Positions 25,263 to 30,335 of a DNA stretch of 37,534 nt are shown here, piece after piece. This stretch comes from a virus. Every line of letters starts with the position of its first letter. Within the stretch, counting starts at the first letter, position 1. The stretch covers positions 1 through 37,534 of the IMG/VR virus record IMGVR_UViG_3300047380_000542. One strand, given 5' to 3'. Position numbers and translations under genes: made by a program. The notes beneath the pieces are model-generated. The model was not told the origin of the DNA. It ran no database searches and was given only the letters and a program-made list of their open reading frames with translations.

Positions 25263-25570
25263 GCTGTAAGGATTTTATGAATGACTGCACACTTCTCATA
25301 CTCTTCCCTTTCTTGAAAGTATATAATTATGTTTTCTAAATCAGTGTTTGAAGGTCCGTCATCCGTATTATGTGCTACAGCAGTATAAGAAAACATTTTA
25401 TTATCATTTGCCCTTTCCTCAATTAAGTCTGAGAAAGTTATTTTTTCTGTGATTATTCTAAAAGAATTATTAAATGCCTGCTCCATTAGTGCATCCTCTT
25501 CTTCTATTTTTTCTATCTCAGACATCCCTGCAAAGATATCATCATCAAAGTCATCATAGTTATCATCCAT
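25259..25570 (-). CDS. Acidic small protein, first gene of the leftward arm (103 aa)
   Basis: The very acidic N-terminus 'MDDNYDDFDDDIFAGMSEIE' and 'KIEEEDALMEQAFNNSF' is followed by a mixed region ending in a helix 'EYEKCAVIHKILTA'. It is the first leftward gene after the divergent control region and has a promoter-like block 10-33 nt upstream. The C-terminal part 'IIYFQEREEYEKCAVIHKIL' resembles the UvrB/C-type helical hairpin segment 'Yee.A.irD.I', which is only a weak resemblance. DNA mimicry is another option given the acid content. No firm family. Confidence 0.6.
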   Translation of the reverse strand: MDDNYDDFDDDIFAGMSEIEKIEEEDALMEQAFNNSFRIITEKITFSDLIEERANDNKMFSYTAVAHNTDDGPSNTDLENIIIYFQEREEYEKCAVIHKILTA

Positions 25571-25865
25571 GTGTGTAGTTTATATAATCAATATACAAAA
25601 TTAAATTATTATACTAAAACAGAATTACCAGAGAAATGACAATTAACATATAGACAATCCACTAAAAAAAAGAGTGAAACAAAAAAATAATTTTTTAATT
25701 TTTAATTTCTGAGTCCATAAACTATATATATTATTCAGTCCTCTGCCCCCCGGCCCTGCAAAAGTTTTGTGTATGGCATTTTCAAGATGTCATAGGCTAC
25801 GGCTCCCCTCCAATTAATTGACGGTGGTGTACCCCACCATAATGTATAACTTAAATTTTTAACAA
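25571..25865. other. Divergent intergenic control region; candidate replication origin
   Basis: This 295-bp gap separates the leftward and rightward arms. About 25600-25740 is extremely AT-rich with A-tracts (around 25665-25720). At 25745-25760 a GC-rich block containing CCCCCCGGCCC stands out sharply. A perfect 5-bp hairpin GGTGG-TGTACC-CCACC (25823-25838) lies 27 nt before the 116 aa gene. A leftward promoter-like block is at 25580-25603. An AT-rich unwinding element next to a GC-rich block at the strand switch is what an origin or bidirectional promoter could look like; no repeated initiator boxes were recognised. Confidence 0.45.
25580..25603 (-). promoter_or_regulatory. Candidate late promoter (TTTGTATATT class with full TAnnTTTG)
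   Basis: On the minus strand TAATTTTG (25603-25596) matches TAnnTTTG exactly and continues TATATTGATTATATAA. This is the member of the late block family closest to the start codon (about 10 nt), and it would drive the whole leftward arm. Confidence 0.5.
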
Positions 25866-26216
25866 ATGTCAAACAATTCAGTTTATTTCCGCAAGATGAG
25901 AATCAATGAGAACACTAAGAACGTGACCATTTATGTCACATCTAAACCACTGACACAGTCAGACACCAAGTTTCTTGGCTTTGACGTGGCAGTCCGTGAC
26001 CAAGATACTATTGTATCAGGTCAGCTTAACTTTGTTGACCCTGCAACAAAGAAGACCATGACTTCTAATCACCCAATGGTGAAGAAGCTCAAGGCCACTA
26101 AGCCTGGGACAGAGATTAAGGGTTTCACCATCAATACAGACGCACCTGTGCGTGATATTGAGACTGGTGATCCACTACGTAATCTCTACTGGGTAGAAGC
26201 TGTTGCATCTGAATAG
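25866..26216 (+). CDS. First rightward gene, unknown 116 aa protein with distinct codon use
   Basis: Starts MSNNSVYFRKMRINENTKNV and has predicted beta strands ('NVTIYVTSKPLTQSDTKFLG', 'TIVSGQLNFVDPATKKTMTS', 'IKGFTINTDAPVRDI'), ending 'LYWVEAVASE'. It looks like a small beta-barrel of the OB type, which would suit a single-strand nucleic-acid binder, but this is inference. Codon use is richer in C/G-ending codons (AAC, AAG, GTG, CTC) than in neighbouring AT-rich genes, and it is followed by non-coding structured sequence. A hairpin in its leader may affect expression. Likely very highly expressed early or of different origin. Confidence 0.7.
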   Translation: MSNNSVYFRKMRINENTKNVTIYVTSKPLTQSDTKFLGFDVAVRDQDTIVSGQLNFVDPATKKTMTSNHPMVKKLKATKPGTEIKGFTINTDAPVRDIETGDPLRNLYWVEAVASE

Positions 26217-26293
26217 ATGCACAGCTGGCCCGCAAGGGTTTGCACTATATGATTGACATGCATTGTTACGTCCATTCCAGGCGTGATGTGCAT
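26217..26293 (+). ncRNA. Structured module 1: 7-bp closing stem with extended helix
   Basis: ATGCACA (26217-26223) pairs with TGTGCAT (26287-26293). The helix continues inward as CTGG with CCAG. A CCC-GCAA-GGG hairpin with a GNRA tetraloop follows directly. It begins right after the stop codon of the 116 aa gene. Confidence 0.45.
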
Positions 26294-26308
26294 GTTACCC
26301 ATATGTTT

Positions 26309-26374
26309 ACACAGTTTACGCTTAAACTACCTGGCTGGCGTTGAAAGTTACCAGGAACTGTGTTTATTTTATTT
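26309..26374 (+). ncRNA. Structured module 2: nested stem followed by T-rich tract
   Basis: ACACAGTT (26309-26316) pairs with AACTGTGT (26356-26363), and directly inside it CCTGG (26330-26334) pairs with CCAGG (26351-26355). AGTTT/AAACT offers an alternative local hairpin. The T-rich sequence after it (TTATTTTATTT) gives a weak terminator look. Confidence 0.4.
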
Positions 26375-26376
26375 GT

Positions 26377-26455
26377 TTGTGTGTTAAGTTGTAAAGATGT
26401 GATCATATATGCCATAATCATTGGTTGTATGCTCAACATAATTGCAGTCACACAA
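26377..26455 (+). ncRNA. Structured module 3: 7-bp stem with competing partner
   Basis: TTGTGTG (26377-26383) pairs with CACACAA (26449-26455), enclosing GTTG/CAAC and TGAT/ATCA helices. The 3' half (ACACAAT, 26450-26456) can instead pair with ATTGTGT (26516-26522), so two exclusive folds are possible. Confidence 0.35.
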
Positions 26456-26690
26456 TATAATATAAATATAGCTATAATAGTTACGTGCACTCAACAAGCA
26501 CTCAAATTATAATTGCATTGTGTATTATGTTCTTCTCTCTATGTATCTATATAAAGAGTAGTATAATATTACCCGCAATATCAAAACAGGCACATAGACA
26601 TATTCCTGTATAAACATGGTTGGTCTCATCCAGTAAGCTGCTGGCGTAAGAGAGAACTTACAGTAATCTAAACTCAACAATATATAGAGT

Positions 26691-26787
26691 AAGTGTAGCC
26701 AGACAAATTAAAGACCAAGACGTTGGTCATCCTACTGTCACATAGATGACAGCTTGTAAACGTTATGTCAACGGGGATGCTACACTT
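26691..26787 (+). ncRNA. Structured module 4: 9-bp closing stem around three hairpins
   Basis: AAGTGTAGC (26691-26699) pairs perfectly with GCTACACTT (26779-26787). Inside in order are GACCAA/TTGGTC (26713-26728, 4-nt loop), CTGTCA/TGACAG (26735-26752, 6-nt loop) and CGTT/AACG (26761-26773). The result is a four-way junction of a kind typical of functional RNA. Confidence 0.5.
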
Positions 26788-26802
26788 ATATCTATAACTC
26801 TT

Positions 26803-26881
26803 ATACTTTTGTGAATTAACAGTATACCTGGAACCCATCGTGGTGTAAAGGCAGACAGGTTGGGATACCCTACAAAAGTAT
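26803..26881 (+). ncRNA. Structured module 5: perfect 10-bp closing stem
   Basis: ATACTTTTGT (26803-26812) pairs with ACAAAAGTAT (26872-26881). Inside, GTATACCTG (26822-26830) pairs with CAGGT (26856-26860) and, after an unpaired TGGG, ATAC (26865-26868). The left arm also contains TACTTTTG, a TAnnTTTG match, so a promoter box is an alternative reading. Confidence 0.5.
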
Positions 26882-26898
26882 ATTATATATACCTGCTG

Positions 26899-26964
26899 TA
26901 ATTAGGGATTAAAAGTAAAAAGTGCTGTAGGCATGTACTTTCATGCACGTCTGCTCCTTAATTA
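26899..26964 (+). ncRNA. Structured module 6: 10-bp stem with apical hairpin
   Basis: TAATTAGGGA (26899-26908) pairs with TCCTTAATTA (26955-26964) with one G-U pair. GCATG (26931-26935) and CATGC (26942-26946) form the inner hairpin with a 6-nt loop. Confidence 0.45.
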
Positions 26965-27017
26965 TAAGTAGGTTATTATTAATCACCTAAAGCTGAAGAG
27001 CATTGTACTATCCTATT

Positions 27018-27146
27018 ATGGAATATATATCACATTGGAATTTTATATCACAAACATCAGCAGATGCTAATGGTAATTACACTATCACTTGGAAGGACCA
27101 AGATGATAATACAGTATTAACAGAACACAATCTATTTAATTGCTAG
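27018..27146 (+). CDS. Small unknown protein (42 aa)
   Basis: ATG 27018 to TAG 27146 encodes a 42-residue polar protein starting MEYISHWNFISQTSADANGN and ending EHNLFNC. The next gene begins one base after the stop (TAGTATG), a spacing common in this genome. It is the first likely gene after the long structured non-coding stretch. No motif recognised. Confidence 0.5.
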   Translation: MEYISHWNFISQTSADANGNYTITWKDQDDNTVLTEHNLFNC

Positions 27147-27147
27147 T

Positions 27148-27315
27148 ATGTTCTTTGAAGATGCACAAGATGCTTGGGAGCTATATAAGATATCTCCTGA
27201 GCTAACATGCACTTGTGATGAGGTTCATACATGTCAACAATGCTATGAGGAATGGCAAGAAGAAAAGAAACTTAGACTTCAAAGACTTGAAGATGCTCTG
27301 AAAGAGAGTAAATAG
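27148..27315 (+). CDS. Small Cys-rich, possibly zinc-binding protein (55 aa)
   Basis: The frame from ATG 27148 to TAG 27315 encodes MFFEDAQDAWELYKISPELT followed by 'CTCDEVHTCQQCYEEWQEEK' and a basic/acidic helix 'LRLQRLEDALKESK'. The C-x-C ... H-x-x-C-x-x-C cluster can hold one zinc. Coding character is good (few rare codons, full-length helix after the cluster). It may be a small host-takeover or regulatory protein. No family known. Confidence 0.6.
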   Translation: MFFEDAQDAWELYKISPELTCTCDEVHTCQQCYEEWQEEKKLRLQRLEDALKESK

Positions 27316-27342
27316 TAATTAATCATTTAAATCTAAATCGTA

Positions 27343-27543
27343 ATGGTAAAGACTAAAACTATGCTCGTAAGCATAACCGTATTCATAATCACCGTAGTAA
27401 TATTTAACACACTCGTATGGTATCTAGAAGATACTTGGACATTCAAAGAGTGCTTTGGCCATGGTGCAACACTAGGCTTCTCAGTTATATTTGCTTGGGT
27501 ACCTGCTTTTATAGTAGGAAATGATTACTACAATCGTATATAA
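27343..27543 (+). CDS. Small membrane protein with two transmembrane segments (66 aa)
   Basis: Two hydrophobic stretches, 'MLVSITVFIITVVIFNTLVW' (about residues 7-26) and 'LGFSVIFAWVPAFIVG' (about 44-59), are separated by a polar loop with a Cys and His. Residues after the second segment (NDYYNRI) are short and polar. It is placed among several other tiny genes and directly before a structured non-coding segment. It could be a holin-like or superinfection-exclusion protein, but early-arm placement away from the endolysin speaks against a simple holin. Confidence 0.6.
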   Translation: MVKTKTMLVSITVFIITVVIFNTLVWYLEDTWTFKECFGHGATLGFSVIFAWVPAFIVGNDYYNRI

Positions 27544-27752
27544 GATAATACCCGTGGCAACGGGAGTGTTGGGTGTCACTTTTTACACCAAGAGGAATAG
27601 TTTGTCAGCTTAACCTCGTATACGTTAGGGCCAATGTGCCTGTAAGGTTTGACAACCTGAAACCGTGTATTTGACTTGTCTGTGGTATATGTAACAGTCA
27701 TCGTCAACCGGGTAAACGGTCATTAAGAGGTAACCAAGCTCTTTATTTTTTT
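27544..27752 (+). ncRNA. Structured non-coding segment ending in an intrinsic terminator
   Basis: About 210 nt without a gene. CCCGT-GGCA-ACGGG (27551-27564) is a perfect hairpin. TTGTCA plus AACCT (27602-27616) pairs with AGGTT plus TGACAA (27645-27655), interrupted only by GCTT, and encloses the palindrome CGTATACG (27617-27624). ACCG/CGGT (27707-27720) follows, and then a terminator. This could be a small regulatory RNA or a leader for the following gene. Confidence 0.5.
27725..27752 (+). terminator. Intrinsic terminator of the structured segment
   Basis: AAGAG (27725-27729) pairs with CTCTT (27739-27743) across a 9-nt loop, and TTATTTTTTT follows. The stem is short but the T-run is strong. 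It lies 20 nt before the 58 aa gene start. Confidence 0.6.
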
Positions 27753-27771
27753 CACCTTAAACAAAAACATC

Positions 27772-27948
27772 ATGCTAACAAGAATCTTAGTAGTGCTATT
27801 AACAGTGTTTGTAGCATTTAACTGCTTTAGAGCAGGACATGATGCATCAACAAATGGAGATACTGCTAGTGCAGTTTTACTCTTTATCATTGGAGTTGCA
27901 TCGTTATATATACCATTAATCCTAAAAGAAGAACCTAATAACACCTAA
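27772..27948 (+). CDS. Small membrane protein (58 aa)
   Basis: MLTRILVVLLTVFVAFNCFR gives a first hydrophobic segment that could also be a signal sequence. A second, 'TASAVLLFIIGVASLYIPLI', follows after a short polar loop, and the tail is KEEPNNT. It ends 5 nt before the next gene. It is likely an inner-membrane protein with two helices; function unknown. It is one of at least four small membrane proteins in this arm. Confidence 0.6.
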   Translation: MLTRILVVLLTVFVAFNCFRAGHDASTNGDTASAVLLFIIGVASLYIPLILKEEPNNT

Positions 27949-30248: not shown

Positions 30249-30335
30249 AATAGTTAGCTATATACTGCTAATTATTTGCAGAACACCATCATTAATCTCT
30301 TAATTATACTTCTATAGTAGCATTTATATTCATAC

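Follow-up and report, generated by a model that had tools for sequence, protein, structure and literature searches.

Exchangeable small RNA domains in a putative array that opens the early region of a phage related to crAss-like phages

Results

Genes and features of the locus

The window (the whole stretch of DNA analysed, 37,534 nucleotides) is a 37.5 kb IMG/VR fragment of a tailed phage; the large terminase shares about 25% identity with those of crAss-like phages. Relatives are numerous in IMG/VR (their loci carry the prefix L below), and the phage is presumably marine, judging by the IMG samples from which close relatives come; among the INPHARED phages there was no DNA-level match to the window. 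Structural genes run leftward (1-25570) and early genes run rightward, starting with p116. The predicted structure of p116 (AlphaFold, pLDDT 87) had PriB as its best Foldseek match, with a probability of 0.97 and a TM score of only 0.33. Two tandem copies of the p116 family are frequent in relatives.

Between p116 and the next real gene, which begins with the ATG at 27018, lies an interval of about 800 nt (26217-27017, + strand) that holds no convincing gene, as the initial annotation had stated; its features are listed in Table 1. A possible tiny open frame at 26481-26609, ending in FSLCIYIKSSIILPAISKQAHRHIPV before its stop, was considered as a standard gene at box E. It is also open in nearly all relatives with the core and would give a similar peptide there, but no start codon is conserved, and it may represent a tiny membrane peptide or a nucleic-acid motif. 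The product of the small gene that follows the array matches an ORF product of L103 (60% over 52 residues), and a similar one occurs in L150. Just outside the interval, at 27551-27760, is Me, a conserved structured RNA of about 200 nt with twelve two-sided (covarying) pairs and a terminator-like hairpin at its 3' end; it has no Rfam match and is 96% identical in phages whose neighbourhoods have otherwise diverged.

Table 1. Features in and around the early non-coding interval of the window
Feature	Position	Strand	Description	Evidence
p116	25866..26216	+	Opens the early genes; marks the upstream side of the array in most relatives	Weak OB-fold (PriB/SSB-like) model
Mj	26244..26306	+	Long closed hairpin module	Shuffles; 98.5% in L092
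Mi	26309..26361	+	Small closed module ACAGTT...AACTGT	96% identical in L041
Core A-C	26360..26480	+	Box A TTTATTTGTTTGTGTGTT, box C ATATAAATATAGCTA	Conserved, ~120 bp
C-E stretch	26481..26583	+	Ends in ATATTACCCGCAATAT; conserved boundary, relatives diverge beyond
hp0	26586..26609	+	Hairpin ACAGG...CCTGT ahead of Ma
Ma	26615..26681	+	Hairpin AUCCAG-URAGYUG-CUGGCGU (26628-26647) and GUAAG...CUUAC
Mb	26683..26799	+	Multibranched; closing stem AAGUGUAGC/GCUACACUU	Covariation, 5 homologs
Mc	26802..26882	+	Closing stem UAUACUUUUGU/ACAAAAGUAUA	100% identical in L115 at different spacing
Md	26896..26973	+	Closing stem UGUAAUUAGGGA/UCCUUAAUUAUA	Shuffles; homologs
Leader of next small gene	26984..27017	+	CACCTAAAGCTGAAGAGCATTGTACTA..., common to relatives	Comparison with relatives
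Small gene after array	27018..27146	+	42 aa, MEYISHWNFISQTSADANGNYTITWK...	Related ORF product in L103

Folding energy

The three inverted-repeat stems quoted in the initial annotation are all present and each encloses a different domain: AAGTGTAGC (26691-26699) pairs with GCTACACTT (26779-26787) in Mb, ATACTTTTGT (26803-26812) with ACAAAAGTAT (26872-26881) in Mc, and TAATTAGGGA (26899-26908) with TCCTTAATTA (26955-26964) in Md. Additional closed domains lie at 26247-26304 and 26311-26361. On the + strand the whole region (804 nt) had a minimum free energy of -221.5 against -187.5 for shuffled sequences (z -4.9, 20 shuffles), and the - strand was weaker (z -1.9). Per-module z values on the + strand (500 shuffles, with a second value for some modules), which are biased in that we picked the module boundaries by structure, were significant for Mb (-4.6), Mj (-3.8, and -5.0 with 0/200 shuffles as good) and Md (-2.9 and -3.0), marginal for Mi (-1.6 and -2.3) and Mc (-1.8 and -1.6), and not significant for Ma (0.0). 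Blind 110-nt windows averaged -1.0 inside the region and -0.5 elsewhere. Because the blind windows from this stretch stand out only slightly, folding energy alone is weak proof; with stability this modest, the case for structured RNA is carried by covariation in relatives.

Covariation in relatives

Such compensatory changes, which the initial annotation had proposed to look for, were found in Mb and in stems of the Ma family. Across five homologs Mb has 29 pairs, 6 of them changed on both sides; only 0-1 of 500 shuffles did as well and slid controls were near zero. Helices 2-5 are 100% paired in the five sequences, the outermost helix is the sole imperfect one (76%), and G-U pairs occur on the + strand. 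The stems flanking the Ma hairpin covary strongly in other carriers of the motif (L027 and L157-L190), in which sets the hairpin itself is invariant; in L103 the hairpin changes from CCAG/CTGG to CCAA/TTGG. M1, a family found in relatives, has seven two-sided pairs. The alignments behind these counts comprise only 5-13 sequences, which are related to one another, and the homolog of Mc is identical and so offers no variable sequence for covariation. Judged by compensatory base changes in homologs, Mb, the Ma family and M1 qualify as structured RNAs.

Two further modules have divergent counterparts. A homolog of Md in an L197-type locus has a z of -6.7 and a different outer stem, and the Md homologs are located near p116, upstream of the core. 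A counterpart of hp0 in L183 reads GAGG...CCTC by eye.

Mosaic distribution of the modules

Close relatives of the L002 type keep 26217-26581 at 97.8% identity and lack 26582-26983, with an ORF in its place. L021 lacks Ma-Md: there the hairpin on the near side of the insertion (26584-26610) matches at 93% and the gene leader on the far side at 100%. Absent from these near relatives, Ma-Md recur in further relatives, alone or differently combined and placed. Ma and Mb are found together in L110, and Ma, Mb and Mc in L115, which lacks Md and carries about 40-45 nt of additional sequence ahead of Mc. In L183 Ma is joined by a shortened Mb. Mb occurs without Ma in L194 and follows Mg in L195, and in L103 Ma is placed upstream of the core. 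The M1, Mf and Mg families are similarly mosaic, M1 standing before box E in L067, after it in three relatives (L047, L069, L079) and beyond the following gene in L018. In L041, Mi is conserved (Table 1) although the flank otherwise differs.

Ma is 100% identical in L110 and 97% in L115, and Mc is identical over 81/81 positions in L115, whose proteins are mostly only 34-88% identical to those of the window, which points to recent sequence exchange. All matches of twelve module queries, in early regions, fell on the strand of the core. Of 56 phage records searched with the models, 6 had Mb (model R1) and 7 had M1, in each case as a single copy per genome. The Ma motif occurs in 47 IMG/VR stretches, mostly relatives of this phage, against 10 matches in bacterial genomes, which by our estimate is about the chance level. 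Some of its occurrences are inside non-coding regions of 1-1.7 kb; two of these (L190 1-1760 and L157 1597-2700, reverse strands) also hold other recurring submodules and are candidates for large composite RNAs.

The genes that follow Mb begin MQIKSESK in L110, MSKEITST in L115 (after Mc), MKKKLLYL in L194 and MANTIKVR in L195, and this placement before different genes speaks against gene-specific switches.

The conserved core

The core A-C had one match in each of 79 loci, with a constant distance of 88-91 between box A and box C, and contains ACCAC-type repeats in relatives. A gene's ATG lies directly within box C in L014, L145, L147 and L027. The consensus fold over 53 distinct sequences reached only -1.7 kcal (RNAalifold), which rules out the core as a structured RNA, and it is probably an early promoter/operator or an origin-type DNA element. 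The box C sequence (TAGCTATATA) recurs in inverted form (position 30255) about 2-5 kb downstream, ahead of the MIYQLPNGRIIEL gene, in many relatives. The motif AAAGCTG.AGAGCAT was considered as a recurrent promoter and rejected, as the window has only one copy.

Searches for known RNA families

In an Rfam search of the window the only matches were three tRNAs (32.3-32.5 kb); lax thresholds (E up to 5, 25560-27800) gave only weak snoRNA/RT-11 chance matches. The GOLLD and ROOL covariance models had no match in the window or in 25560-27800 at E up to 5, and models of self-cleaving ribozymes (hammerhead, hatchet, pistol, twister and others) were unmatched in the window. In relatives, however, Rfam ribozymes were found in non-coding DNA on the early strand: hatchet in L190 (10438-10575, -), pistol in L157 (3451-3512, -) and L166 (1434-1498, +), and RAGATH-1 hammerhead in L021 (3058-3136, -). 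A freshwater-1 RNA lies near tRNA genes in L187 (12522-12584). A description of these modules was not found in the open-licence PMC literature, preprints excluded.

Discussion

The modules are present or absent in a mosaic pattern and keep one orientation; Mb and the Ma family show compensatory changes, and those modules that were searched for occur once per genome. With moderate confidence we read the locus as a series of small RNA domains, exchangeable and presumably carried in an early transcript, and not as one large RNA. It opens the rightward early region, where the core probably starts or regulates early transcription. After the core and in the gap next to p116 would come folded domains of about 50-115 nt, each with its own closing stem (Mj, Mi, Ma, Mb, Mc, Md), which appear to be exchanged among phages singly or in short runs in the manner of accessory genes, and which are presumably transcribed with the early operon within leader or intergenic RNA. 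Since the modules precede different genes and relatives carry ribozymes, we favour self-contained accessory RNAs or processing/stability elements: most likely each domain is independent, freed by cleavage or acting in place, and is not a switch dedicated to any single gene downstream.

A plausible if tentative alternative is that the modules are purely cis-acting elements of early mRNA (RNase or ribozyme cleavage sites, stabilisers or attenuators) which separate or protect the mRNAs of small genes and have no role in trans. They are intergenic, always in the sense orientation and between small genes, the early non-coding regions of relatives hold hatchet, pistol and hammerhead, and closed hairpins in such places recall the RNase III sites of T7. 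Mb and M1, on the other hand, are multibranched with conserved unpaired residues, beyond what a plain cleavage hairpin needs, and there is a single copy per genome despite many intergenic gaps.

We consider it unlikely that the conserved part serves as an origin of replication or a partition-type DNA locus and that the inverted repeats function at the DNA level, as cruciforms or single-strand loops. The fixed spacing of the boxes, the lack of an RNA fold in the core and the weakly PriB/SSB-like fold of the adjoining p116 would suit such a locus. GC skew changes sign near 26-27 kb, but it also follows gene direction; the modules have strand-specific G-U pairs and a fixed orientation, and the universal part is the core only.

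The initial annotation had raised the possibility of a new large phage RNA, with a transcript of 600-800 nt, whose size and setting recall GOLLD and ROOL. One large ornate RNA of this type over the whole interval, with a fast-evolving periphery, would agree with the size, the phage setting, the many stacked domains and the 1-1.7 kb non-coding regions of other phages with the Ma motif. We regard it as very improbable: half of the interval is missing in phages that are 97.8% identical over the other half, modules are found alone and elsewhere, a conserved core without structure lies in the middle, and Rfam gave no match. What survives of the proposal is a phage-encoded, non-coding, structured and modular locus that is new to Rfam; its central ~120 bp is unstructured and DNA-like. 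Hardly any weight attaches to MITE-type DNA transposons with the closing stems as terminal inverted repeats, as suggested by inverted-repeat closure and presence or absence at matching sites, for the stems vary with compensation and are not fixed, the modules occur in one orientation and one copy per genome, and no target duplication was seen by eye at the junctions compared.

For the array of RNA domains, the RNA families and their mosaic arrangement are new, and phage structured RNA as such is of a known kind. Phage accessory regions are mined for small proteins with roles in anti-defence or takeover; here folded RNAs appear to be traded in the same manner and place. It is conceivable, though we hold it doubtful, that crAss-like-related phages keep a variable early locus of interchangeable structured RNA genes, traded like morons, several of which are new classes of ribozymes or trans-acting anti-host RNAs. 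The outcome is a set of defined families, for which sequences, boundaries and a covariance model are available, and the relatives with hatchet, pistol or hammerhead may be a good place to look for ribozymes or RNA effectors as yet unknown.

Several known systems resemble the locus in part. The early intergenic RNase III hairpins of the T7 type are likewise closed stems between early genes, but the window's modules are multibranched, have conserved unpaired sequence and are exchanged as families. GOLLD and ROOL are also phage-encoded, non-coding, multi-domain structured RNAs of unknown role, and they form a homo-oligomeric cage (PMC12286853). They differ in being continuous RNAs with a conserved long-range architecture, whereas the domains here are small, independent, separable across relatives and gained or lost one by one, and the tRNA genes are about 5 kb off instead of adjacent. 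The hatchet, pistol and RAGATH-1 hammerhead of relatives are likewise small, structured and encoded on the early strand within the same phage group, although their models do not match the modules of the window. Phage accessory gene cassettes (morons) are patchy, single-copy, horizontally exchanged and located in the early variable region, as the modules are, with the difference that the unit here is a folded RNA and not a protein gene.
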